Of a DNA stretch of 64,000 nt, positions 8,130 to 59,229 are shown piece after piece. The stretch is taken from NCBI RefSeq assembly GCF_007747995.1, contig NZ_CP036276.1, positions 3,277,001-3,341,000 on the forward strand. The letters run 5' to 3'. Numbering within the stretch: position 1 is the stretch's first letter; each line of letters starts with the position of its first letter. Made by a program: the position numbers and the translations under genes. The notes beneath the pieces are model-generated. The model had not been told where the DNA came from. It searched no databases and was given only the letters and a program-made list of their open reading frames with translations. This DNA is from Symmachiella dynata (GTDB lineage Bacteria > Planctomycetota > Planctomycetia > Planctomycetales > Planctomycetaceae).

Positions 8130-8855
8130 ATGACCGAACAGTCGATCGCAACCGTTTATGTTGACACAGCCATTGAGAGTCTGCGTCGGCACGATTTAAT
8201 GTGCTGTCCGGACCCGAATATGCCGGCGGAAATGCGTGATCCAAACGTGCCACCCTCGGGGGCTTGGCTAGCGTGGCAACCCATTGCGAGTACCGTGACC
8301 GACCAGGACATCGATGAGCTAGAAAGTCTTTACTGTGGCAAGTTGCCCGATTTGTATGTCGAGTTTCTCAAATACCGCCATTTCTACGAACTCACCGAAT
8401 GCGGAGTCTGTTTCGAAAGCCATGTCATCGGTCAATGGAAGGAGGAACTCACCAGATTGTATGACGTCTGCCGACAGGACTTTCCGACTGGTTCCCACCT
8501 TATTCCATTTGGTTCCCATGCATTATCGGATGCAGGTCCCGTATGTTTTGACTTTCAACAAAGGCACACAGACGGTGATTGCTCCATTGTGATTTGGGAC
8601 CACGAACCCCTAAACACAGATCAGGAAATAATTCCGCTATTCTCCTCTTCGGCGAAAATGTTTGAATCGATGACATTCAGTGCCAAATCGGAAATCGATT
8701 TTTTGGGTGGTGATCCCGTTGAAGACTCAGAAGAGGAGCTTATTCAAAAAGGGCAGTTACTTTCTCAATTCCTCGCAATAGACCCTAATGGTGCAGGTGG
8801 TCCAGCACGTGAGATTTGGACATGCTGGGGCGTTACACCACAAGCCACTAAGTAA
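8130..8855 (+). CDS. SUKH (SMI1/KNR4)-like protein
   Basis: 241 aa from ATG 8130; the frame is open upstream to a TTG at 8100. The central part (~45-200) resembles SMI1/KNR4 domains: an N-terminal helix ending in LPDLYVEFLKYRHFYEL, then the strand pattern LIPFGSHALSDAGPVCFDF and CSIVIWDHE, where the acidic/aromatic residues are typical. Many SUKH proteins are immunity proteins against contact-dependent toxins, others are of unknown role. No toxin gene is beside it. It is bracketed by two direct copies of a 131 bp hairpin repeat, which suggests acquisition or movement as a cassette (inference). The family assignment is by pattern only. Confidence 0.6.
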   Translation: MTEQSIATVYVDTAIESLRRHDLMCCPDPNMPAEMRDPNVPPSGAWLAWQPIASTVTDQDIDELESLYCGKLPDLYVEFLKYRHFYELTECGVCFESHVIGQWKEELTRLYDVCRQDFPTGSHLIPFGSHALSDAGPVCFDFQQRHTDGDCSIVIWDHEPLNTDQEIIPLFSSSAKMFESMTFSAKSEIDFLGGDPVEDSEEELIQKGQLLSQFLAIDPNGAGGPAREIWTCWGVTPQATK

Positions 8856-8892
8856 AAATCGCGTGAAACGAAGTGGTGGACCATGTGTTTGT

Positions 8893-9023
8893 CCCCGAAA
8901 GATTCTTTCGGGGCGGCGCAGCCGCGGGAGTTATTGGCAAATAGTCAGCAACTTCGTGGCAAGCTCTCCTGCCGACTTCGTCGGCCCAGATAGAATCTAT
9001 CTGGGCTACCCTGTGCTGCATGA
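8893..9023 (+). repeat. 131 bp multi-hairpin repeat, copy 2
   Basis: Second copy of the repeat at 7960-8090, same orientation, 37 bp after the SUKH-like gene. In this copy the last dyad is extended to 11 perfect base pairs (around 8984-9006), and compensated changes keep the stems, which argues for selection on structure. Confidence 0.85.
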
Positions 9024-9120
9024 CAGATCGCGTTTTGAATGTGCGACTGTCGCCTGTGCCGCGGCGTTGCCAGCCAACTGCAGTTGCATCTCGCTATCAA
9101 ATCAACCAGAATGCATGTGT
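9024..9120 (+). repeat. Diverged copy of the sequence that follows the second porin
   Basis: Bases 9024-9039 are identical to 7290-7305 (the last codons and stop of the porin), and a second block near 9076-9095 matches 7340-7359 at nearly the same spacing (36 versus 38 nt). This looks like a decayed duplicate of the porin 3' end and trailer. No functional gene is left here. Confidence 0.45.
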
Positions 9121-9197
9121 TGAGTTCATCCTGGAACGGGTGGCGTCGACTGCGCTACGGAATTGCCATGAATTGAGCAATGTGATCGGGGGGATCT

Positions 9198-10625
9198 ATG
9201 ACGGGCCCACGGACCGAAACGTTGACGTTGCCGCCGCGGGTCTCTCGCCGGGATGTGTTGCAGGCTGGAGCTCTCGGACTGGGAGCAGCATCGTTACTTC
9301 CCACATCTACTATCGCCGCTCCCCAGGTCGCCACGCGGCGAAAGTCTGTGATCTTTGTGTTTCTGACGGGCGGAATTTCGCAGCAGGACAGCTTTGATAT
9401 GAAGCCGGCGGCGCCGGTGGATGTTCGGGGCGAATTTCAACCGGTCTCCACGCGGACACCGGGCCTGCAAATCTGTGAGCATCTGCCGCTGTTGGCGCAG
9501 CGGACCGACAAATACGCGATACTGCGGACACTCGCCACCGGCAGCAATGGCCACGAACTGGCTTGTCACATGATGCTCACCGGGCGGTTGGATTTGCCGC
9601 CGGCATTCAACACGAACGACGCACCCAGCCCCAACGAATGGCCGTCGATTCCCTCGCTGGTGACGTATGCCACGCGCGGACGAAATAATTTGCCGCCGGC
9701 GGTCGTGCTGCCGCAACCAAGCATCAACGAGATCGGCCGCTTTCGACCCGGGCAGTATGCCGGACGGTTGGGACCGCGTTGGGAAGCATGGCACGTCGAC
9801 ATTGCCGCGAAGTGCCCGTTGGGGAATGGCGCCTGCCCGGACTGTTTTCGCTTCGACGGCTCGCCGTTTCAGCATGGCTCGCCAACGATCTTTGACACGC
9901 CACACCTCAAATTGCCCAACGGCGGCAATGGGCGGTTATCGGAACGGTTGAGTTTGCTGGCAGGAATCGAGCATCAACGGGAGCACATGCAGCGCGTGGC
10001 CCGTGTTGAGCAGCACGCAAAATTTCGCGAGCAGGCGGTTTCGGTCTTAGCCGATCCAACCACGAAAGAGGCCTTCGATGTGGAGAACGCCGATCCGAAA
10101 CTTGTGGAGCGGTATGGCAAAAACAAGTTTGGCCTATCCTGCTTGATGGCGTTTCGGCTGTCGCAAGCGGGGGTGAATTATGTGCAGGTCAATTTGGGGA
10201 AAAATTCCTCCTGGGATACACACTACGGCAATTTTGCGAATCTTAAAAACAACCTGCTCCCACCAATGGACCGAGCTGTGTCGGCGTTGATGGACGATCT
10301 GTTTGAAAGCGGCCTATCGGAAGAGACGTTGCTGATAGTGGGAGGCGAATTTGGGCGGACGCCAAAGATCAACAAAGATGCGGGGCGCGACCATTGGGAT
10401 CCGGTCAATTCGGTGTTGTTTGCCGGTGCGGGTGTCCCTGGCGGAAAGGTCATCGGCAAGACCGACGCGCTGGCAGCCTATCCGCTTTCCGGCCGGCAAA
10501 CGACGGAAAACTTTGCCGCGACAATATTTGATACGTTGGGCATCCCCTCCTCTACCAGTTGGACCGACCTCGACGGCCGTCCGCATCAGATTTATCATGC
10601 ACAGCCGCTTGAAGGATTGCTCTAA
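9198..10625 (+). CDS. DUF1501 family exported protein
   Basis: 475 aa; a GGGGGGA ribosome site sits 4 nt before the ATG. The Tat-like leader SRRDVLQAGALGLGAASLLP is followed by VIFVFLTGGISQQDSFDMKP, the usual DUF1501 entry. The alkaline phosphatase/sulfatase-like core shows LIVGGEFGRTPKIN and GRDHWDPVNSVLFAGAG. DUF1501 proteins are abundant in planctomycetes and usually pair with a PSCyt1/DUF1549/DUF1553 gene; this one has no such partner and instead precedes a second DUF1501 gene by 60 bp, likely in one transcript. The biochemical activity of the family is not established; a hydrolase role on sulfate or phosphate esters is inferred from the fold. Confidence 0.9.
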   Translation: MTGPRTETLTLPPRVSRRDVLQAGALGLGAASLLPTSTIAAPQVATRRKSVIFVFLTGGISQQDSFDMKPAAPVDVRGEFQPVSTRTPGLQICEHLPLLAQRTDKYAILRTLATGSNGHELACHMMLTGRLDLPPAFNTNDAPSPNEWPSIPSLVTYATRGRNNLPPAVVLPQPSINEIGRFRPGQYAGRLGPRWEAWHVDIAAKCPLGNGACPDCFRFDGSPFQHGSPTIFDTPHLKLPNGGNGRLSERLSLLAGIEHQREHMQRVARVEQHAKFREQAVSVLADPTTKEAFDVENADPKLVERYGKNKFGLSCLMAFRLSQAGVNYVQVNLGKNSSWDTHYGNFANLKNNLLPPMDRAVSALMDDLFESGLSEETLLIVGGEFGRTPKINKDAGRDHWDPVNSVLFAGAGVPGGKVIGKTDALAAYPLSGRQTTENFAATIFDTLGIPSSTSWTDLDGRPHQIYHAQPLEGLL

Positions 10626-10685
10626 CAGGCCATCGTATGCCGCTCCCCCCTTGCAAAAACTAAGGGGCTGAAGGACGATTAACGA

Positions 10686-12098
10686 ATGCTGACAATTCAG
10701 GGCAATAAAACACAGTACTGCGACGGTGTTTCTCGCCGCGGTTTCCTCACGATAGGTGCGCTGGGGGCTGCCGGGCTGACATTGCCGGAATTATTGCGCG
10801 CGGAAGCGGCGGCGGGAATTGGATCGTCGAATAAAGCGGTGATCAACATCCATCTCGACGGGGGTCCGCCGCAGATGGATATGATTGATCTTAAGCCGGA
10901 TGCTCCGGTGGAAATTCGCGGTGACTTTTCGCCGATCTCCACGGCGGTCGCGGGAATCCAAATCAGCGAACTGCTGCCGAAATTGGCTGCGAATGCCAAT
11001 GATTTTGCCTTCATCCGCTCCTTGGTCGGCTCGGCTGGGAGGCATGATGCGTTTCAGTGCCAATCGGGATTTCATGCCAAAGACCTTGCTTCAATCGGTG
11101 GACGTCCGTCGATGGGAGCTGTGCTTTCGAAACTGTATGCCACCGCGGGACAAGCAGCGCCGACGTTTGTCGATTTGATGCAGGGGCGTCCGCTGGTGCG
11201 CAACAGCGCCCGTCCCGGTTTTCTTGGACCGGCCTATCAGCCGTTTCGGCCCGACATTTCCCACCTGTTCACCCGGCAACTCGAACCGGGAATGAAAGGT
11301 GAGTTGGCCCGCTTAGGAACTGGGCATGCGACGAGTCTGGTGCTGAATCCACAATTGTCCGCGCGGCGATTGACCGACCGTACGCAGTTGTTGACAGGCT
11401 TGGATCGCATTCGCCGCGACGTCGATTCCAGCGGCATGATGGATGCGATGGACCGTTTCACACAACAAGCCGTCAATATCCTCACGTCGGGGGCATTGGC
11501 CGATGCGTTGGACTTGGAGAAGGTCGACCCCGCGACGCTGCGGCGGTATCAGTTTTCCGCTGAGACTAGTGGGGAGCGTTCAAAATATAGCGACGGACCG
11601 GAGGCGACCTACAAATTGCTTTTGGCGCGGCGATTGATTGAGGCGGGGGTTCGCTGCGTGAGTGTCTCGTTTAGTGACTTTGACACTCATCGCAACAATT
11701 TTAGCCGGTTGCGGAATGTTCTGCCGATGATCGATCACGGGCTCGATGCGCTGGTCACAGACTTGCGCGAGCGGGGAATGTTCGATGACGTTTCCATCGT
11801 CGCCTGGGGCGAGTTTGGACGCACACCGCGGATCGATACTAAAACAGCCGGACGCCACCATTGGCCGCGCGTGGGCATGGGATTGCTGGCCGGTGGCGGG
11901 ATGCGAACCGGGCAGACGATCGGCGTTACGGATCGCCAAGCGGCAACGGCGGTCTCCCGGCCGGTGCAATACAAAGATGTCTTTGCCACGCTCTACCGGA
12001 ACCTGGGGATCGACGCGACGGGTGTGACGGTCGATGATCCCACCGGCCGCCCGCAATATCTGCTGGACAGCGGCACGCCGTTGAGCGAATTGGTCTAA
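10686..12098 (+). CDS. DUF1501 family exported protein (tandem paralogue)
   Basis: 470 aa. AAGGA lies ~10 nt before the ATG. The Tat-like leader is SRRGFLTIGALGAAGLTL. The core repeats the pattern of its upstream neighbour: INIHLDGGPPQMDMIDLKP, APVEIRGDFSPIST, IVAWGEFGRTPRID and AGRHHWPRVGMGLLAGGG. The two tandem genes clearly share ancestry but are strongly diverged, so different substrates are likely. The gene is convergent with the small membrane-protein gene that follows (13 bp apart). Active-site assignment is not possible from sequence alone. Confidence 0.9.
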   Translation: MLTIQGNKTQYCDGVSRRGFLTIGALGAAGLTLPELLRAEAAAGIGSSNKAVINIHLDGGPPQMDMIDLKPDAPVEIRGDFSPISTAVAGIQISELLPKLAANANDFAFIRSLVGSAGRHDAFQCQSGFHAKDLASIGGRPSMGAVLSKLYATAGQAAPTFVDLMQGRPLVRNSARPGFLGPAYQPFRPDISHLFTRQLEPGMKGELARLGTGHATSLVLNPQLSARRLTDRTQLLTGLDRIRRDVDSSGMMDAMDRFTQQAVNILTSGALADALDLEKVDPATLRRYQFSAETSGERSKYSDGPEATYKLLLARRLIEAGVRCVSVSFSDFDTHRNNFSRLRNVLPMIDHGLDALVTDLRERGMFDDVSIVAWGEFGRTPRIDTKTAGRHHWPRVGMGLLAGGGMRTGQTIGVTDRQAATAVSRPVQYKDVFATLYRNLGIDATGVTVDDPTGRPQYLLDSGTPLSELV

Positions 12099-49468: not shown

Positions 49469-52400
49469 ATGCATTGTCCCCCCCTGACATTCTTCTCTCG
49501 AAATCAACGTCGCGTCCTAACGACGTTGGCTGTGGTGTTTTCCATCGTTGGGACGTGCCGGGGCGATGATGCGGCTGGTTTGGAGTTATTTGAGAAAAAA
49601 ATTCGGCCGGTGCTGATCCAGTCCTGTTACGAGTGCCATTCCAGTCAGGAGGACAAACCCAAAGGGGGACTGCGGCTGGATAGTCGTGAGGCAACGCGCA
49701 CGGGGGGAGACAGCGGCGCGGCGATTGTTCCCGGAAAGCCGGACGAAAGTCTGCTGATCGAGGCGATGCGGCACGAGTCGTTCGAGATGCCTCCGCAGGC
49801 CAAATTGTCCGACGAGACGATTGCCGATTTTGTAAGATGGATTGAAATCGGGGCACCCGACCCCCGCGATCGCCCCGATAGCAACACGGTCGACAATGCG
49901 TGGCCGGTACTGCTCAACGCGCGGCGCGATTGGTGGTCGCTGCAACCGGTCGTCCGTCCTGAGGTGCCGGAGATCAAGGCGAACCCGCCGAGGGGCACGA
50001 TTGACCGTTTTATTTTGGCAAAGCTTGCGAATGCAGGAATTGCGCCGCCGGAACAAGCGGCGCCGCGAACGCTCATTCGGAGGTTGAGTCTGGTACTCAC
50101 TGGCCTGCCGCCAACACCTAAAGACGTCGACCGTTTTTTGCGGGACAGCGAAGTGAATGCGGAAGCGGCGTATGAGTCGCTCGTCGATCGCTTGTTGAAT
50201 TCGCCGCACTTTGGCGAACGTTGGGCGCGACATTGGATGGACGTGGTTCGTTTTACCGAAACGCACGGCAACGAGTGGAACTACGAGGTGCATCACGCTT
50301 GGCGGTACCGCGATTACCTGATTCGCGCATTCAACGCCGATGTGCCGTACGACCAATTCGTCCGCGAGCACATCGCAGGGGACTTATTGGACCACCCCCG
50401 TTGGAATGACGAACAGCAGTTGAACGAGTCTTTGATCGGTACGTCCTTTTACCGTTTCGGTGAAGTGAACCACGACGATTGTGTGACGTTGACGTCGATC
50501 GGTTACGACATTTTAGATAACCAGATTGATACGCTGACAAAAGCATTTCAAGCAACGACCGTCGCTTGTGCGCGGTGTCACGACCATAAAATGGATGCGG
50601 TTTCCGCGGCGGATTATTATGCGCTGTTGGGCATCCTCAAGAGTTCACGGCTGACCGCCCACACGCTCGATGCGCCGACGGTGAATGCAGAATTGATGGA
50701 GCAGTTGCGTGTGTTGAAAACGCAACTCCGCGAGGAGTTGGCGCAGCATTGGCAGTCGCAGACCGGTGATGTTGCCAAATATATGCTGGCGGCGCAGGCG
50801 CGGATTGCCAAGTCGTCGGAAGCGGATGTTTTGGCGACCGGTTTGAGCGCGCCGCGGTTAGAAGGTTGGGTCAAAGCCCTTTCTGTGGAGAAGCCGGGAA
50901 TTGACCATCCCGCGCGGGCTTGGCAGACGGTGAACGCTGCCGAGAATGTTCCCACAGCGTGGCGCGAATTAGCGGTGAGTTTTGAAAAGGATCGCCAAAC
51001 GCATGAGTCGTTCAATGCTAAGCAATTCACACGCCTTGCCGATTTTCGCGATGACGATCCGACCGAATGGAGCGCCACCGGCCAAGGTCTGCGTCAGGGG
51101 CACACGTCAAGTGGCGCATTCACCGTGGCGCATGACGGCGACAACGTTGTTCGGCAAATTCTTCCCGCCGGTCGCTTTACGCATGTCTTGTCGGAGAAAC
51201 TCAACGGCACGCTCCGCTCGCCCGTAATTAGCGGCGGGAAGTCGCACATCAGTTTTCAGGTGTTGGGAGAGAACACGAGCGCCGTGCGTTTGGTTTCCAA
51301 CAACTGTCAGCTCAACTATGCCAACTACCGTGCATTGACCTCGCCGCAGCCGACGTGGGTTACATTTAAGGTCCCCGCCAATGCGGAAATGTTGCGGACG
51401 TTTGCGGAACTGGTCACGAAATTCGATAACCCCAAGTTTCCGGATCAATTGGGAACGTTAGGAGGCGATAAGACCAACGACCGCATACCGTGGTCCGAAG
51501 CAGCCGCGGACCCGCGATCGTATTTCGGCATTCTGCAGGTCGTGGCGCATGACGGCGGCGATCCGCCTAAGCCGGACCTGTCGCCGTTGGCCCGGTTGTA
51601 TGGCGAGGCCGATACGGTGGTCGCGCCCGCTGATATTGCCGACAAGTATTCCGCGGCGATTCAAACGGCAGTGGAGCACTGGTCGGCGGGGACTGCTGGC
51701 GACGATGATGTTTATTGGCTCTCTTGGTGTGTGGAGAACAATCTGTTGGACCATGCCGTGAACGCCTCGTCGCAGATTAAAAAATTGGTGGGCGCTTACC
51801 GCAAGATAGAAGAACAACTGGCGCGGCCGCGCCTGGCGGCGGGGATTGCCGACCTGGGTGCAGGGCAGGATCATCGCATATTGCTGCGGGGCAACTTTGC
51901 GACTTTGGGAGATGTCGTGCCGCGGAGGTATTTGGAAGTGCTGTCGAATTCCGCAAAGAATTCTCAACCCACGGGCAGTGGGCGGCGGGAGCTTGCCGAT
52001 CAGATTGCATCGTCGCACAATCCGCTGACGGCTCGGGTGATGGTCAATCGTGTCTGGCATCACCTGTTTGGTGCGGGAATCGTACGGAGCGTTGATGACT
52101 TTGGACATGTCGGCGATCTGCCGTCGCACCCGCAATTGCTGGATCATCTCGCCGCACGCTTTGTGGAACCTGCCGGCAGTCACGGCGACGGCATGGGCTG
52201 GTCGGTGAAGACGTTGATCCGTGAAATAGTGTTATCACGTACATTTCGCGCGACAGGCCGCGCCGAGTTATCGGCCACAGAGATCGACCCACAGAATCGC
52301 TTGTTGCATCACTATCCGGTACGGCGGATGGAGGCCGAGGCGATTCGGGATTCGATTTTGACCGTTTCCGGCCGGCTGCAACCAAAATTATTTGGCGAAA

Positions 52401-52879
52401 GCATTCAGCCGTTTCGCCCTGAATCGAATCCCACCCGTCGGCTGTTTGCTGGGCCGCTCGATGGGGCGGGCCGCCGCAGCGTGTACATTAAGGTCAATTT
52501 AATGGAGGGGCCGAAGTTTTTGAGTGCCTTCAATCTCCCCGGCGGAAAAATCACCCAAGGCCGCCGTGATATCACCAATGTGCCGGCGCAGGCACTGACG
52601 CTCTTAAACGACAGTTTTGTCCTGCAGCAAGCGGGGGTCTGGGCAGAGGCGGTGATCGAAGACGAGACCATTACAGTTGGCGAACGACTCATGACGATGT
52701 TTGAGGCTGCTTTGGGACGCCCGGCTACGCCGCTGGAAATCGAGCGGTTTGAGGAACTGATCGGCACGCTCGCGCAGCTAAAGGAAATTCCCGGCGACCA
52801 GATTCTGTCGTCCAAAGAGATCTGGCAGGACGTGGCGCATCTTTTGTTTAATGGCAAAGAATTCATTTACATCCCTTGA
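49469..52879 (+). CDS. PSCyt1/DUF1549/DUF1553 protein
   Basis: 1136 aa. A leader (VLTTLAVVFSIVGTCRG) then PSCyt1 with CYECH (~53-57) and KPKGGLRLDSREA, IVPGKPDESLLIEAM, FEMPPQAKLS. DUF1549 is ~165-370 (RRLSLVLTGLPPTPKDVDRF, DQFVREHIAGDLLDH) ending with a second CARCHDHKMD. A long middle segment (~400-830) lacks the LamG found in the 40 kb paralogue. DUF1553 is ~840-1090 (NPLTARVMVNRVWHHLFGAGIV, RLLHHYPVRRMEAEAIRDSIL). Possible redox/heme role by motif. It is followed 51 bp later by DUF1501. Confidence 0.93.
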   Translation: MHCPPLTFFSRNQRRVLTTLAVVFSIVGTCRGDDAAGLELFEKKIRPVLIQSCYECHSSQEDKPKGGLRLDSREATRTGGDSGAAIVPGKPDESLLIEAMRHESFEMPPQAKLSDETIADFVRWIEIGAPDPRDRPDSNTVDNAWPVLLNARRDWWSLQPVVRPEVPEIKANPPRGTIDRFILAKLANAGIAPPEQAAPRTLIRRLSLVLTGLPPTPKDVDRFLRDSEVNAEAAYESLVDRLLNSPHFGERWARHWMDVVRFTETHGNEWNYEVHHAWRYRDYLIRAFNADVPYDQFVREHIAGDLLDHPRWNDEQQLNESLIGTSFYRFGEVNHDDCVTLTSIGYDILDNQIDTLTKAFQATTVACARCHDHKMDAVSAADYYALLGILKSSRLTAHTLDAPTVNAELMEQLRVLKTQLREELAQHWQSQTGDVAKYMLAAQARIAKSSEADVLATGLSAPRLEGWVKALSVEKPGIDHPARAWQTVNAAENVPTAWRELAVSFEKDRQTHESFNAKQFTRLADFRDDDPTEWSATGQGLRQGHTSSGAFTVAHDGDNVVRQILPAGRFTHVLSEKLNGTLRSPVISGGKSHISFQVLGENTSAVRLVSNNCQLNYANYRALTSPQPTWVTFKVPANAEMLRTFAELVTKFDNPKFPDQLGTLGGDKTNDRIPWSEAAADPRSYFGILQVVAHDGGDPPKPDLSPLARLYGEADTVVAPADIADKYSAAIQTAVEHWSAGTAGDDDVYWLSWCVENNLLDHAVNASSQIKKLVGAYRKIEEQLARPRLAAGIADLGAGQDHRILLRGNFATLGDVVPRRYLEVLSNSAKNSQPTGSGRRELADQIASSHNPLTARVMVNRVWHHLFGAGIVRSVDDFGHVGDLPSHPQLLDHLAARFVEPAGSHGDGMGWSVKTLIREIVLSRTFRATGRAELSATEIDPQNRLLHHYPVRRMEAEAIRDSILTVSGRLQPKLFGESIQPFRPESNPTRRLFAGPLDGAGRRSVYIKVNLMEGPKFLSAFNLPGGKITQGRRDITNVPAQALTLLNDSFVLQQAGVWAEAVIEDETITVGERLMTMFEAALGRPATPLEIERFEELIGTLAQLKEIPGDQILSSKEIWQDVAHLLFNGKEFIYIP

Positions 52880-52930
52880 AAACGTTTTCGTTTGGTGCTG
52901 AAGTACGAAATCGTGGGAACAGTTGGCCGT

Positions 52931-54346
52931 ATGAATCCTCATAGCAACAATTGTCCGGGACGCGGACCGCGGCTGTTTTCGCGGCGTAGCATGCTGAAAT
53001 CGTCTGCCAACGGTTTTGGAATGTTGGCGCTGTCGGCGTTGATGTCGGAACGCGCCTATGGGGCGCCGGCCACGGGACCGCATTTTGCCCCGACGGCTAA
53101 AAACGTCATCTTCTGCTTTCTGGACGGAGGAGTCTCGCATGTCGATTCGTTCGATCCCAAACCGAAGCTTGCGGAGGTCGACGATCAACCGGCCGGTGAG
53201 ATCGATAACCCGACGGCGAATGTGAATCGCAAATGGCTCAAGTCCCCCTGGAAGTTCGCTAAGCATGGCGAGTCAGGACTGCCGGTCAGCGAATTGTTTC
53301 CGCACATTGCCAGTTGTGTCGACGATTTGGCTGTGATTCGTTCGATGAAAGCGGACCTGCCGATTCACTCTACGGGGGTGTTGTTTTTACATACCGGGTC
53401 CAACGTAGCTGGGCGTCCCAGTCTTGGCTCGTGGGCCAGTTATGGACTGGGCAGCGAAAATCAGAATCTGCCGGGGTTTGTGGTCTTAAATTTTGGCGTG
53501 ATTCCTTGCGGGGGATTGGAAAACTATTCCAGCGGTTTCCTACCGGCCAGTTTTCAAGCGACGTTGCTCAATGCCGATGGTCCGCCGCTGGAGAATATCA
53601 CGCCGGGCGACAGCCGCGCGGGGGTGCAGCGTGCCAAACTGGATTTGCTCAAACTGCAGGACCGCGCGTTTGCTGAGACATTAGGGGGCAACGACGCCGT
53701 TGAATCGGCCGTTAAGAACTATGAACTTGCCTACCGCATGCAATCGCTCGTCCCGGACGTGCTGGATTTGTCGCGGGAAACGAAAGCGACGCAGTCGCTT
53801 TATGCGATCGATTCCAAAGTCGACTCGCAGCGGCTGTATGGGATTCAATGTCTCCGCGCGCGGCGGTTGATCGAATCGGGTGTTCGTTTTGTGGAGATCA
53901 CCTGCCCCCCGGGCGCCTCGAACGGTACGTGGGATCAACATGGGGCGCTGAAGAAAATGCACGAGAAAAACGCTCTCGACACCGACCAAGCGATTGCCGG
54001 TTTGATCAAGGACCTCAAAGCACGTGGGCTGTTTGACGAAACGCTGATCGTCTGGGCGGGAGAATTTGGACGCACGCCGCATGCGGCCTCCCGCGACGGA
54101 CGTGATCATCATCCCGAAGGCTTTACCGTTTGGCTGGCCGGTGGAGGCGTCAAAGGGGGCGTGGCGCATGGGGCGACTGACGAGTTGGGCATGCATGCGG
54201 TGGAGAATGTCTGCACGATGCACGACCTGCATGCGACGATATTGCATCTCTTGGGCTTGGACCACCAACGCCTAACCTACCGTCACGGCGGCCGCGACTT
54301 TCGCCTCACCGATGTACATGGTGAAGTGATTCACGAAATTCTGTGA
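52931..54346 (+). CDS. DUF1501 family exported protein (operon partner)
   Basis: 471 aa from ATG 52931. The Tat-like leader is FSRRSMLKSSANGFGMLALSAL. Core: [71 protein letters not shown], and the shared C-terminus [22 protein letters not shown]. It resembles the 43.8 kb DUF1501 protein more than the tandem pair at 9-12 kb. Its cotranscription with the 1136-aa PSCyt1 gene is inferred from the 51 bp gap. Convergent with cysE. Confidence 0.92.
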   Translation: MNPHSNNCPGRGPRLFSRRSMLKSSANGFGMLALSALMSERAYGAPATGPHFAPTAKNVIFCFLDGGVSHVDSFDPKPKLAEVDDQPAGEIDNPTANVNRKWLKSPWKFAKHGESGLPVSELFPHIASCVDDLAVIRSMKADLPIHSTGVLFLHTGSNVAGRPSLGSWASYGLGSENQNLPGFVVLNFGVIPCGGLENYSSGFLPASFQATLLNADGPPLENITPGDSRAGVQRAKLDLLKLQDRAFAETLGGNDAVESAVKNYELAYRMQSLVPDVLDLSRETKATQSLYAIDSKVDSQRLYGIQCLRARRLIESGVRFVEITCPPGASNGTWDQHGALKKMHEKNALDTDQAIAGLIKDLKARGLFDETLIVWAGEFGRTPHAASRDGRDHHPEGFTVWLAGGGVKGGVAHGATDELGMHAVENVCTMHDLHATILHLLGLDHQRLTYRHGGRDFRLTDVHGEVIHEIL

Positions 54347-54361
54347 ACCGTACAAGCTGAT

Positions 54362-55192
54362 TTAAATCCCGCTGCCGTCGGCGTGGTGATGCGGCAGCAT
54401 GTGATCCATGTCGAGTGCCGGTTCGGCAACTGAGAGCCGTCCCACGATTTTGGCCGGAATTCCGGCGACCGTGCAGTGCGCGGGAACATCGTCTAAAACG
54501 ACGCTGCATGCGGCGATTTTCGCTCCGGTACCGATTTCGACATTCCCCAGGATTTTAGCACCGGCGCCGACCAGTACGCCATGCCGGACTTTGGGATGGC
54601 GGTCTCCCGTGGCTTTTCCGGTTCCCCCCAAGGTCACTTCGTGCAGCATGGAGACGTTGTTTTCCACGACGGCGGTTTCACCGATCACGACCGAGGTGCC
54701 ATGATCCAGCAAGATACCCTGTCCGATGCGGGCGGCCGGGTGAATATCCGCAGCAAAGACCTCTGAAATGCGGCTTTGGAGGTGCAGCGCCATCGCCCGC
54801 CGATTCTGCCCCCACAACCAATGCGCGACACGATAACTTTGCAGCGCATGAAAGCCTTTGAAAAATAGCATCGGCACATAATAGTATTCCGATGCCGGGT
54901 CACGGTCGCGGACCGCTTGAATGTCACACCGCAGGGCGGCGCGGACCTGCGGGTCGCTGGCAAAGGCCTCGTCGATCACTTCGCGGATCAACATGGCCGT
55001 TACATTCACATCGGCCAGTTTGCCCGCGAGGTGGAAACTCATCGCATCTTCGAGCGTCTCGTGTTTGAGAACCGTGGCGTGCAGAAAGCTGGCCAAGATC
55101 GGCTCTTGGGTAGCCGCAGACTGAGTCTCTGCGCGGATCGTGTCCCAGATCTTATCGTCGCCTATGTGTTGTGCGGCGTCTGACACCGGCAT
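54362..55192 (-). CDS. cysE: Serine O-acetyltransferase
   Basis: 276 aa. It makes O-acetylserine for cysteine synthesis. The N-terminal helical SATase domain is intact (DKIWDTIRAETQSAATQEPILASFLHATVLKHETLEDAMSF). The left-handed beta-helix has FAADIHPAARIGQGILLDHGTSVVIGETAVVENNVSMLHEVTLGGTGK, with the catalytic His/Asp in the LDHGT region. The C-terminus ends in DGSGI, matching the Ile-terminated tail by which CysE docks into CysK. A cysK gene is not in the window. It lies 47 bp downstream of the large PQQ-type gene on the same strand, so readthrough transcription is possible. Confidence 0.95.
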   Translation of the reverse strand: MPVSDAAQHIGDDKIWDTIRAETQSAATQEPILASFLHATVLKHETLEDAMSFHLAGKLADVNVTAMLIREVIDEAFASDPQVRAALRCDIQAVRDRDPASEYYYVPMLFFKGFHALQSYRVAHWLWGQNRRAMALHLQSRISEVFAADIHPAARIGQGILLDHGTSVVIGETAVVENNVSMLHEVTLGGTGKATGDRHPKVRHGVLVGAGAKILGNVEIGTGAKIAACSVVLDDVPAHCTVAGIPAKIVGRLSVAEPALDMDHMLPHHHADGSGI

Positions 55193-55239: not shown

Positions 55240-58200
55240 TTACTCGCGTTCGATTTTAATGCCGCTGAGAATCGGAGCATCACTTCCATCGCGCGGGACG
55301 AATTCGACAACGAGATTGTCAGTTACGGAAATCCCGGCCACTTCGTGAATTGCTGAGCGCCCGTTACCCTGATCCGATTCGTCGAGGCCTACGTTTTCCA
55401 GTAACGTTTCACCTTGGATTTTTACATCAAATTTCGCTGCTGCGGATGGATCACCCTGGCGCGCTGTGAAATAGAATTTCACGCGATAGCTTGCCGGGTC
55501 GGCCCCCTGCTCTTGCAGTGGGATGGTGAGTTGTTTCAACCCTTCGGCCCAATAGGAATAAATCCAGGGTGACTCAACGTCAGTTAACGCCTCCGCTTGA
55601 CTATTGATTCCGGAGTATTTTTTGCCGTCGGCGAAGTCGGTTTGCAATTCCAAGGGTAGGACCAAACCGGTCTCCTTGTAGGCTTTGGGCCGCGGATACG
55701 CCAACCAGACGGTTCCGCTGGCGTCGCGACGATCTCCCGGGGCACCGAAGTTGAGTGCCAAATGTTTCACCGGCGTCGATTTTCCTACGGAACTATAGAT
55801 CGTCCAATCCCGCCGGGGTTCGCGCGGTTCCATGACGATGGTCGAGGCGATCGAGAATAGACAGACACAACCCGCACTCGCTTCGGGAACCATCAACAGG
55901 CCGTTGGCGGGAATCATGTTGATCCAGCATCCGGTACGGTGTCCGGCGAAGTGCCGCGTGCCGTTGTCGGCGTTCAGATCGTAAAACCCAGTGAAGCCGG
56001 AGCGGAAAAACATCATATCCGGTGTAGCAGTCATCATGCCGCAATGGTGTCCGGTACGGACCATGCTCCAGGGGACCTCTTCGCCGGTGATGGGGTGCTT
56101 CCGCATGCGCTGCGCGCCGGTGTAGAGGTCAAATCCCCATGGTTCGGCGACGATCTGATCTTCGATAATGATCGGGCGATGTCGATAGTTGGCATCCTTG
56201 GCCCACAACTTGTGTCCATCTTCGCCCGATAGCGCCACGAGTCGGCGACTTTTGAATTCCCCGGCGAGGAATTGTTTCCAGTAGTGACCGTTGGCGTTGG
56301 CGCCGCAGAGTACCAGCACGTTGTTTTGCACCATTAAAGTCAACTTGCCGCCGCCGGTGCCGATTTCACTGCAATCGGTCACGTCGACCGGTGTTTCCCA
56401 CAATTTTTCGCCGGTCCGCGCATCTAGAGCAACCGCCAAGCGAGCGTCGATCCGCTTCATCCGTGCTTCGGCCTCTTTGGCCTCCTCGCCGGTCAGTTTT
56501 TTAAGTTCAGTTTTGTCTTCACGCAGCAATTCATCGCGTTGGTCACTGGTGATCGTGCTGTCGATGAAGAAGACCCGTTCCGGTCCCAAAGCAATGGTGT
56601 GATGGGCGATATGTTTGCCTTGATAGCTCCAGGCGGTCTTGCCCGTTTTAGTATCGATTGCGAACAGCCCGGTCGTGCTGTCATCGGTCACTTTGCCGCG
56701 ACGTTGCTTACGGCGTTCGACTTCTTGGCGGATCGTGGCGGTGCCGATCAGCAGGCCGTCTTGGTAGGCCAGATAACCCCATTCGTGATCCTCGTTGCCT
56801 GCTTCGGGGGGAACGGTGTAGGTGGCTTTGATTTTGCCGGTCGCCAGATCGAGGTTGTGGCATTCACCCCGGACCATGACGAATAGATCGTCGCCGCCGG
56901 CGACGAGGTTTCCGGGATTTTGATTTTGAAAGACACCGGTCCGCACGGCATTGGGCTCCTCCCGCTCCCACAAGAACATGCCATTGTAGGCGTCGTAGGC
57001 CATGACGCTGTTTTCGCCCTGCACGATCAAACGGCCATCGATGGAAAGTGGGCCAACGGCGCCGTCGTGCCGGTTGACCATTTTGCCGGGGCCGGGATCG
57101 CCATACCACAGGACGCCCAGTCCGCCCTTTAAGCGGCGGTCGGTGCTACTGGCGGTGTTTCCCGGATCGCCGTATTGGTGCGACCAATTGGCTGCGCCCG
57201 GCAGTTTGTCGCGGGTCAATGTGATCGCCGTGCCATCGGTCGAGGTGTGTGATTGGTCGGCTAATTTCATGCCTGCCAACCAGTCCTGACGGCTTTGAAC
57301 GGCTTGCGCGGGATCGTCCTTTTTGCCGCCCAGATAAACCACGCCACCAAGCGGTTTGAGGTGCCGCGCGATTTCCGCTGGATTTCCAGGAACGGTCCCA
57401 CCCAGTAACTGGGTGTCGGATACGATCATGTTTGCAAAATAACTTGAGTAAGGGACCGGCGCAAAATCGGCCTGATGTACGGTCACCCGACTGCCGTAGA
57501 GCCCTGCGGCGTTGAGGGCTTTGCGGGAGGCGGCTACTTTGTCCGCGTCCGGTTCCAAACAATACAGCGTCAACTCGCTTTGCCGCGCCAGCTCATAGGC
57601 GAGTCGTCCCTGTTCGCTGCCCAACACGAGTGCAAAGCCGCGATTGACGCCTGTGGTCTTTAAGATGTCTGCCGCTGCGTCTTGATAAAACTTGGTCAAC
57701 TCATCTTGAGGATAGGGATCAGCGCCGATGTTCTTTTTGGCGACCGCTGAGGGAACGGCGGGCGTATCGGCTGATGCGAAAGCATAGATCTTGCCCGTGC
57801 TGGTGCTCACAAACAGATTTCCGCCGGCGACTGCCAATCCGCGAGCTTCGCCGTCGACCGGGGCGCTCCAGAGGGGCTTGCCTGTTTCGGCGGAAAAGGC
57901 GGCGACTTCTCCATCTTTGCCGGCGAAGACCAAATCCCCCGTCACCAAGAGTGATGACTCTCCATCAAACGGTGTTTTCCAGATGACACCGACTTGGTCT
58001 GCTTGTTGGATTTTGGCTTCTAGTTCCTTCATCTCCTTTTTGGCTTGCTCTAGTTCTTCGCCTTCGGTGGTATAGATCTTGCGCATGATCGGCCGCCGGC
58101 CTTGTTCCATTTTGTGGCGTTTGCGGCTACCGGCGGCATAAGCGTCTCGGTCGAGTTTGATCAACGATTGTCCGCTGAGCGTGTATGCGTATTTATCGGC

Positions 58201-59229
58201 CATCGCCAATTGATAACCGGTAAACCAACCGTACCCCACATCGCCGGTCTTTTGTTCCATCGGCAGAATATGGTGATCGCCCCAGCAGAAGATTTGCCCC
58301 GACGCTAGCAACGCCTTCGAGCCGCCAACAACCCCACCCGCGTCGCCCCGCCAACCGTGAACGCGTTTGTGGACGACCTTGCCTGTCTTGCGATCCACAG
58401 CCGCCGGCAATGAACGCCCGGAGGGGACAAACAACAGTTCGTCGTTGGCTAACAGATAACCTTGCGGCGACAGGTCATTTCGACCGGCATCCTCTTCACT
58501 GATCGTGTCTCGTTTCCAGACCAAGGAACCGTCATTCGCGTTGACCGCGTAGAGGTAGATATTTTCATGCGGAAAAATTCCAGCGCCGAAATAGGCGATG
58601 CCGTCATCGACGAGAATTCCCGTGCGGATCGGCCAGCGTGAAATCATCTCTTGGCGTGCGATCAGCCAGTCGTCGTCGGGCCCGGCGCGGTGTTTCCAGA
58701 TCAAGCCGCCGTCGTCGCTGTTGAGGCAATAAGCGTTGCCATCGTCCGATCCGAAGTAAACGCGACCATCGGCGACTGTCGGGGCCAATCGAATCGGCCC
58801 CCCGCTGTAGAAACTCCACAGCTCTTTTCCGTTGTTGATGTCAACGCAATGCAATTGATCATCGACAGATGAGCCGTAGTACAGGCGATCGCCCACAACG
58901 GCGACGTGAAACGCGTCGTCGAAGGTCATGCGATCTCGCACTAGCTTTCCTTCAATAGTCCGGTTGTCAGTTCCCGACCACGCCATTTGCGGCGCAGCAT
59001 CAGGCGAGATCGTCCAGCGTAGTTGCAGCGGCACTTTGATGGATTCGGAGGTGTGACCGGCGCGGGCGTTATCGTGCATATATGTTGGCCAGTCATCGGC
59101 CAGAGACGAATTGGGCAGCCAGCTTCCCAACCCGATGATCGCCGCGCACAACAAGAACGCAGCCTTAGCGAAATCACGCCACATCAAATGATTGTCATTA
59201 TTGTTTGTTGAACGAATAACGTGATCCAT
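55240..59229 (-). CDS. Giant exported double propeller (PQQ/BamB-like) with embedded methyltransferase-like domain
   Basis: 1329 aa from ATG 59229, AAGGAT 6 nt upstream. N-terminal membrane/signal segment ~15-45 (FLLCAAIIGLGSWLPNSSLA). Propeller 1 (~50-500): repeats of VGDRLYYGSSVDDQLHCVDI, NGKELWSFYSG type, with a short coiled coil (~385-415). Residues ~515-680 are a class I Rossmann methyltransferase-like domain: FALVLGSEQGRLAYELAR, LYCLEPDADKVAASRKAL and VHQADFAPVPY. Propeller 2 (~700-1150) continues the PQQ-type blades (VMAYDAYNGMFLWERE, LVALSGEDGHKLWAKD). The end (~1165-1329) is a malectin/carbohydrate-binding-like domain. Exported, so a SAM-dependent activity is doubtful. Role unknown. 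Confidence 0.82.
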   Translation of the reverse strand: MDHVIRSTNNNDNHLMWRDFAKAAFLLCAAIIGLGSWLPNSSLADDWPTYMHDNARAGHTSESIKVPLQLRWTISPDAAPQMAWSGTDNRTIEGKLVRDRMTFDDAFHVAVVGDRLYYGSSVDDQLHCVDINNGKELWSFYSGGPIRLAPTVADGRVYFGSDDGNAYCLNSDDGGLIWKHRAGPDDDWLIARQEMISRWPIRTGILVDDGIAYFGAGIFPHENIYLYAVNANDGSLVWKRDTISEEDAGRNDLSPQGYLLANDELLFVPSGRSLPAAVDRKTGKVVHKRVHGWRGDAGGVVGGSKALLASGQIFCWGDHHILPMEQKTGDVGYGWFTGYQLAMADKYAYTLSGQSLIKLDRDAYAAGSRKRHKMEQGRRPIMRKIYTTEGEELEQAKKEMKELEAKIQQADQVGVIWKTPFDGESSLLVTGDLVFAGKDGEVAAFSAETGKPLWSAPVDGEARGLAVAGGNLFVSTSTGKIYAFASADTPAVPSAVAKKNIGADPYPQDELTKFYQDAAADILKTTGVNRGFALVLGSEQGRLAYELARQSELTLYCLEPDADKVAASRKALNAAGLYGSRVTVHQADFAPVPYSSYFANMIVSDTQLLGGTVPGNPAEIARHLKPLGGVVYLGGKKDDPAQAVQSRQDWLAGMKLADQSHTSTDGTAITLTRDKLPGAANWSHQYGDPGNTASSTDRRLKGGLGVLWYGDPGPGKMVNRHDGAVGPLSIDGRLIVQGENSVMAYDAYNGMFLWEREEPNAVRTGVFQNQNPGNLVAGGDDLFVMVRGECHNLDLATGKIKATYTVPPEAGNEDHEWGYLAYQDGLLIGTATIRQEVERRKQRRGKVTDDSTTGLFAIDTKTGKTAWSYQGKHIAHHTIALGPERVFFIDSTITSDQRDELLREDKTELKKLTGEEAKEAEARMKRIDARLAVALDARTGEKLWETPVDVTDCSEIGTGGGKLTLMVQNNVLVLCGANANGHYWKQFLAGEFKSRRLVALSGEDGHKLWAKDANYRHRPIIIEDQIVAEPWGFDLYTGAQRMRKHPITGEEVPWSMVRTGHHCGMMTATPDMMFFRSGFTGFYDLNADNGTRHFAGHRTGCWINMIPANGLLMVPEASAGCVCLFSIASTIVMEPREPRRDWTIYSSVGKSTPVKHLALNFGAPGDRRDASGTVWLAYPRPKAYKETGLVLPLELQTDFADGKKYSGINSQAEALTDVESPWIYSYWAEGLKQLTIPLQEQGADPASYRVKFYFTARQGDPSAAAKFDVKIQGETLLENVGLDESDQGNGRSAIHEVAGISVTDNLVVEFVPRDGSDAPILSGIKIERE

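Follow-up and report, generated by a model that had tools for sequence, protein, structure and literature searches.

An exported planctomycete protein family with a methyltransferase fold between two propellers and a linked set of envelope genes

A gene at positions 55240-59229 of the window, the whole 64,000-nucleotide stretch of Symmachiella dynata DNA analysed here (contig NZ_CP036276.1), encodes a protein with a signal peptide, a propeller, a class I methyltransferase (MT) fold, a second propeller and, at its end, a malectin-like region that is weakly detected. The original prediction, a model's reading of the letters and open frames, had the position right; the gene lies on the minus strand, whose frame is open over 1329 amino acids (aa), while stops are abundant in the plus frame. 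The central domain is a real methyltransferase fold, and the protein belongs to a large family tied to a specific gene set. We propose, at a probability of about one half, that the MT domain serves as a non-methylating, ligand-binding bridge between the two propellers in an exported envelope complex, together with transporters and a secreted protein that we call ACC.

The fold of the MT domain was recognised by several routes. In a phmmer search of the whole protein against the PDB, the putative class I methyltransferase 3dlc was matched at residues 512-636 with an expectation value (E) of 4.5e-5, and a profile built from five paralogues of this genome found the same structure at E 2e-14. The AlphaFold2 model of the domain alone (94 sequences) had a predicted local distance difference test score (pLDDT) of 93.9 and the element order a-b-a-b-a-b-b-a-a-b-a-b-b, and Foldseek matched it to class I methyltransferases with 3dlc ranking first (E 3.3e-12). 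The seven-stranded Rossmann-like fold with its b6-b7 hairpin was thus assigned by element order and Foldseek rather than by the strand order of the sheet. In Pfam, Methyltransf_25 fell just under its cut-off with the MT domain alone (E 3.9e-5, 24.7 vs 27 bits) and matched each of the five paralogues when values up to E 1 were admitted (1.5e-10 at best), while a scan of the whole window protein returned no methyltransferase family at E up to 1, propeller-type families alone exceeding the cut-off. The matches to 3dlc by phmmer, profile and Foldseek ruled out a chance likeness, and the methyltransferase-like domain predicted at about residues 515-680 was borne out by the modelled structure.

The propellers predicted on both sides of the MT domain were also found. 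PQQ_2 matched propeller 1 (P1, residues 44-478) at E 2.9e-26 and propeller 2 (P2, residues 691-1150) at E 1.3e-15. Residues 44-1165 were modelled with AlphaFold2 (74 sequences) at pLDDT 90.1 and a predicted template-modelling score (pTM) of 0.91, the three modules P1-MT-P2 being confident as a single unit; pyrroloquinoline quinone (PQQ) dehydrogenases, BamB and tetrathionate hydrolase were among the best 50 Foldseek matches of this model. The window protein shares its blade type and overall propeller fold with BamB, PQQ_2 propellers and PQQ dehydrogenases, but differs from them in having two propellers around an MT domain and a four-cysteine signature. It is of the PQQ_2 propeller type without reaching the cut-offs of the BamB equivalog TIGR03300 (74.3 vs 285.2 bits) or of the PQQ alcohol dehydrogenase TIGR03075 (63.1 vs 480.05 bits).

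The four-cysteine site of P2 is the most constant feature that we found in the family. All four cysteines were invariant in the 74 rows of the alignment, and 135 of 137 proteins, permuted ones in the set included, have a C-C-CxC signature no more than 620 residues past the MT domain, compared with 1/137 reversed and 1/137 shuffled controls. The 137 proteins (136 of them distinct) are those of 184 open reading frames (ORFs) with scores above 40 that are intact at the 3' end, a half-length ORF of locus L036 being excluded; the pattern is a relaxed one, devised after viewing nine proteins, and a first version requiring a GC pair matched 111/137. The C-terminus is less distinct. Pfam Malectin (PF11721) matched that of the window protein at E 0.018 (15.4 bits, under the gathering value of 23), and phmmer against the PDB gave nothing for it beyond weak NagJ matches (best E 0.3). 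The malectin-like end of the original prediction is clear in the paralogue at L009 (E 4.2e-13, 50 bits), but weak in the window protein itself; its account of the core layout held, and its account of this end and of motif I needs correction.

Export of the protein is supported by its predicted signal and by those of its relatives. Residues 21-44 read as a Sec-type signal ending in SLA|DDW (by eye). Among family ORFs with a complete start, a strongly hydrophobic stretch (11 residues with a mean hydropathy of 1.8 or more) occurred within the first 130 residues in 154/160 and within the first 60 in 139/160, compared with 13/159 and 16/152 for internal 130-residue stretches. By eye, four of the six remaining ORFs have weaker signal-like starts and two appear to be mis-started. 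This family-wide pattern ruled out a cytoplasmic location and agrees with the predicted export; the protein most probably works outside the inner membrane.

Motif I, which had been described as lacking its usual glycines, reads G-S-E-Q-G in the window copy. The outer glycines, G537 and G541, are in fact kept; what is lost is the middle glycine, replaced by E539, and the upstream Asp, replaced by V535. The window copy (V-L-G-S-E-Q-G) therefore lacks the GxGxG and strand-1 acid of class I methyltransferases, while the acid that ends strand 2 is present as E559. To place these changes in the family, we aligned 177 domains, a set from which profile scores below 40, starts after model position 30 and near-identical sequences (183 reduced to 177) were excluded. 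Glycine was found at position 537 in 152/177 domains, at 539 in 59/177 and at 541 in 142/177; the position before the loop (535) was acidic in 19/177, position 559 in 153/177 and position 588 in 82/177. Nine of the 177 domains carry the complete D-x-G-x-G-x-G, and 46, those nine included, have GxGxG. The outer glycines alone are kept in 76, with Glu in the middle in 57 of these, as in the window, and at least one outer glycine is gone in 55. A tree was built with FastTree from the alignment minus the motif columns (72/174 of its inner branches are weakly supported). A minimum of 41 changes is required on it to account for the four motif classes, whereas shuffled labels require 83 on average, indicating that the site was remodelled repeatedly. 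The window MT domain sits in a 65-row set of the tree in which 50 rows are of the GxxxG type. In this type the reshaping is specific, with Glu common, suggesting that the site has been altered and has not merely decayed. With an altered motif I in a real methyltransferase fold and an export signal, methylation by the window copy is unlikely.

The 'repurposed fold' of the original prediction agrees with this altered motif in an exported protein, but the SAM-type (S-adenosylmethionine) site has not simply been lost throughout the family, as the complete motifs show, and a quinone as the ligand found no specific support in our analysis. Full motifs combined with a signal-like N-terminus occur at L012, where the motif is G-C-G-D-G with Asp before it, at L154 and at L168, where the signal-like stretch lies immediately before the MT domain. 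Compared with class I SAM-dependent methyltransferases (Methyltransf_25; 3dlc, MMP1179), the window protein has the same fold, element order, strand-2 acid and KPxGG region, but it is exported, its MT domain lies between propellers and its motif is G-S-E-Q-G without the Asp. Pseudo-methyltransferases of the METTL14 type likewise have a methyltransferase fold that serves a partner without catalysis of its own; unlike the window protein, METTL14 is not exported and has no propellers.

The family is large, and its modules occur in several arrangements. There are five copies in this genome: the window gene, L009, L011, L012 and a split pair at L010, where P1 is a gene of its own and the next gene encodes LamG-Fn3-MT-P2 (fn3 and MT under the Pfam cut-offs). 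Across the phylum, 56 of 294 genomes had an MT match at E<=1e-5, with at most ten first-pass candidates scored in most genomes and, among the matches listed, up to 13 MT domain matches in a single genome. Relatives were also found in records named Verrucomicrobia, Armatimonadota, Lentisphaerae, Hydrogenedentota and Zipacnadia. The relatives used here were the best 80 of 280 by similarity, plus 60 loci chosen from the phylum-scan matches. When segments of the window protein were compared by Blast with the 184 MT ORFs, both propellers were found in 155, and extra domains around the P1-MT-P2 core vary among members. A lone P1-like ORF adjoins an MT gene in eight loci (L010, L079, L080, L085, L125, L134, L159 and L173; L079 and L080 are near-copies). 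At L070, L167, L174 and L179 the order is permuted to MT-P2-P1, the propeller after the MT domain matching the P2 query and the last one the P1 query, and MT-first proteins with a P1 match alone occur at L042, L150, L168 and in both genes of L181. The strongest evidence for a single working unit is that the modules occur together in three arrangements (fused, split and permuted). A unique insertion in one protein was ruled out by these forms, the relatives and the phylum scan; the original prediction, which treated a single protein, thus missed both the large family with its split and permuted modules and its link to a specific gene set.

Several loci hold more than one family gene. The two MT-first genes of L181 (1026-7335) overlap head-to-tail on one contig. 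Two different family members lie in tandem on the same strand at L054, L063, L066, L070, L072 and L074, which suggests paired paralogues. At L036, an ORF with a signal and the first half of the MT domain (8605-9069) is followed by one with the rest of the MT domain and the propellers (9071-11881), a split gene of the MT-first type that is either broken or the product of a sequencing error.

A specific gene set accompanies the family. In 20 of the fetched loci the MT gene adjoins a gene for ACC, a secreted protein that carries AC-x-VPVFRYALE close to its N-terminus and a G-x-C-x-C stretch further along; the two genes are divergent or ACC lies downstream, and several overlap by a few bases. Since these loci had been fetched for the MT gene, we tested ACC genome-wide in the same 294 genomes. 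ACC was present in 45 genomes, which comprised 45 of the 56 MT genomes and none of the 238 others (Fisher 5e-43, ignoring phylogeny). The 56 are the MT genomes at E<=1e-5, a further 28 of the 84 found at E<=1e-3 being set aside as probable ordinary methyltransferases; with all 84, ACC occurred in 45/84 and 0/210, and at an MT cut-off of E<=1e-8 it occurred in 44/52, with one ACC genome falling outside. ACC had no PDB match at E up to 1 and no NCBIfam match at E up to 0.001, and Pfam, searched with five members, gave nothing but a RIFIN match far under its cut-off in one of them.

A tandem two-domain ModA-like binding protein (SBP) shows a similar distribution, being present in 38/294 genomes, all within the 56. 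We chose an E limit of 1e-60 so as to leave ordinary ModA out, and from the 41 genomes found, three single-domain matches (G216, G257 and G121, none among the 56) were dropped; G277 and G281 match about half of the SBP model, and without them 36 SBP genomes are left. ACC and SBP occur together in 33 genomes (31 without the half-length matches), and at least one of them occurs in 50 of the 56 MT genomes. The tandem proteins (e.g., L198, 12504-14150) have conserved cysteines (YCAAG, NGCG, ACD), unlike single-domain ModA. In 20 stretches chosen around ACC genes, which represent 18 of the 45 ACC genomes with some genus codes repeated (three g3, three g2), we counted FtsX-like genes in 11, LolD-like in nine, SBP in 12, ModB-like in nine and ModC-like in ten. 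Among the cluster proteins, NCBIfam modA and Pfam ThiF and ThiS scored over their cut-offs, and NCBIfam MoeB, MoaD, LolD and WtpC under theirs. The set resembles molybdate uptake by ModABC with MoeB/MoaD in its linked modA and its ModB/ModC-, MoeB- and MoaD-like genes, and differs from it in the tandem two-domain form of the binding protein. MoaA occurred in 36/45 ACC genomes and 200/249 others. It showed no association with ACC, which does not favour a standard molybdopterin role, and we did not count such a role as support.

We suggest that the protein took up a class I methyltransferase fold to bridge its two propellers of the BamB/PQQ type. Where motif I normally has its middle glycine, the Glu would project into the space that SAM usually occupies, so that the window copy would most likely not methylate. 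The acid at the ribose-binding position is conserved, and we expect a small ligand, nucleoside-type or otherwise, or a charge lock in place of SAM. The four-cysteine site of P2 would be functional, possibly in a metal or redox role. The unit would act outside the inner membrane with ACC, the tandem SBP with ModB/ModC and an FtsX/LolD transporter, possibly assembled into one complex, and MoeB/MoaD-like proteins would belong to the system in some genomes. Several points weigh against this proposal. That Glu539 enters the SAM site is an argument from knowledge of the fold and not a measurement; relatives with a full SAM motif mean that non-methylation may not hold family-wide; and four constant cysteines in an exported protein may simply form two disulfides. 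The co-occurrence ignores phylogeny, although ACC genomes span 19 family codes, and six of the 56 MT genomes (G027, G028, G037, G111, G144 and G160) have neither ACC nor a tandem SBP. Around ACC, only 8/20 stretches contain an MT gene, 7/20 a MoeB/ThiF-like gene and 1/20 a MoaD-like gene, a count that may be too low for MoaD because ORFs below 110 aa were excluded. In this genome, ACC with FtsX (C1:4486451) and SBP-ModB-ModC (C1:2493797) lie apart from all five MT loci, so the window copy adjoins neither ACC nor the transporter. Of its actual neighbours, the cysE-like gene recurs beside a family gene in L013 only (78% identity, among the ORFs compared), and the sialidase in L013 and, weakly, in L153.

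The same domain might instead be a pure structural linker, a dead pseudo-domain that spaces or stiffens the propellers and binds nothing. This is a possibility that we take seriously but rather doubt: the loss of outer glycines in 55 domains, the many changes of motif class on the tree and the confident single model of all three modules would suit it, but the ribose-position acid is widely kept, Glu539 is itself too common among GxxxG domains to look random, and R569, R581, P626 and GG628-629 are almost invariant across a 114-domain set, though perhaps for structural reasons. It is unlikely that the family includes active exported transferases, with at least some members drawing on SAM, or on a different nucleoside donor, beyond the cytoplasm. 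The nine domains with the full motif, and the signal-like starts of L012, L154 and L168 among them, are what such enzymes would look like, but the window copy has lost both the Asp and the middle glycine, and no periplasmic SAM pool is known. We consider it very unlikely that these are PQQ- or BamB-type proteins into which an MT domain was inserted by accident and which share no system; the PQQ_2/BamB matches of the propellers and the varying extra domains could be read in that way, but the MT family extends across the phylum and into records named after other phyla in fused, split and permuted form, and ACC and the tandem SBP are confined to family genomes among the 294 sampled.

A bolder extension of the ligand-binding bridge, which we offer tentatively and think improbable, is that P1-MT-P2 belongs to an undescribed metal-sulfur or oxyanion-dependent envelope system, as the component outside the cytoplasm that acts as catalyst or acceptor. 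In such a system, the tandem ModA-like transporter would supply an oxyanion and the MoeB/MoaD-like proteins sulfur, the product would be delivered or inserted by FtsX/LolD and ACC, and the four-cysteine propeller would carry the cofactor outside the cell membrane, with the MT domain holding a nucleotide-type group.

Table 1. Features of the window gene and its protein (positions in the window)
Feature	Position	Strand	Basis
Whole gene, 1329 aa, P1-MT-P2-malectin-like	55240..59229	minus	open frame
N-terminus with Sec-type signal peptide, residues 1-44	59098..59229	minus	sequence; SLA cleavage by eye
Propeller 1 (P1), residues 45-490	57760..59097	minus	PQQ_2 on residues 44-478; AlphaFold2 model
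Helical insertion in P1, residues 361-410	58000..58149	minus	model helices 318-333, 335-344, 348-367 (model positions; the model begins at residue 44)
MT domain, class I methyltransferase fold, residues 505-690	57160..57717	minus	3dlc profile, AlphaFold2, Foldseek
Altered motif I V-L-G-S-E-Q-G-R, residues 535-542	57604..57627	minus	177-domain alignment
E559, acid ending strand 2 (ribose-binding position)	57553..57555	minus	177-domain alignment
Propeller 2 (P2), residues 691-1150	55780..57159	minus	PQQ_2; model
P2 four-cysteine signature C1063, C1101, C1121, C1123	55861..56043	minus	alignment and pattern search
C-terminal malectin-like domain, residues 1151-1329	55243..55779	minus	Pfam Malectin

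The neighbours of the window gene were compared with ORFs near other family members. The gene 47 bases downstream (54362-55192, minus strand) is what we take, by eye, to be a serine acetyltransferase-like gene (cysE). Two large adjacent genes on the plus strand (49469-54346) presumably correspond to the planctomycete pair of DUF1549/DUF1553 and DUF1501 proteins; relatives of each were found in seven ORFs near other family members, a recurrence that pointed to no function. The DHDPS neighbour had one weak match among the compared ORFs, and the PilZ and cytochrome peroxidase neighbours had no relatives among them.

The folds themselves are known. In the titles and abstract openings of the open-licence literature, we found no description of the exported arrangement, of its split and permuted forms or of the linked gene set, and to that extent all of these appear to be new. 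The findings indicate that a methyltransferase fold has moved out of the cytoplasm and been retained in a large, repeatedly duplicated family, which may form the core of a cell-envelope system. Its tie to a specific gene set offers a testable path to function for exported planctomycete proteins, and it might also lead to envelope cofactor chemistry of a new kind.

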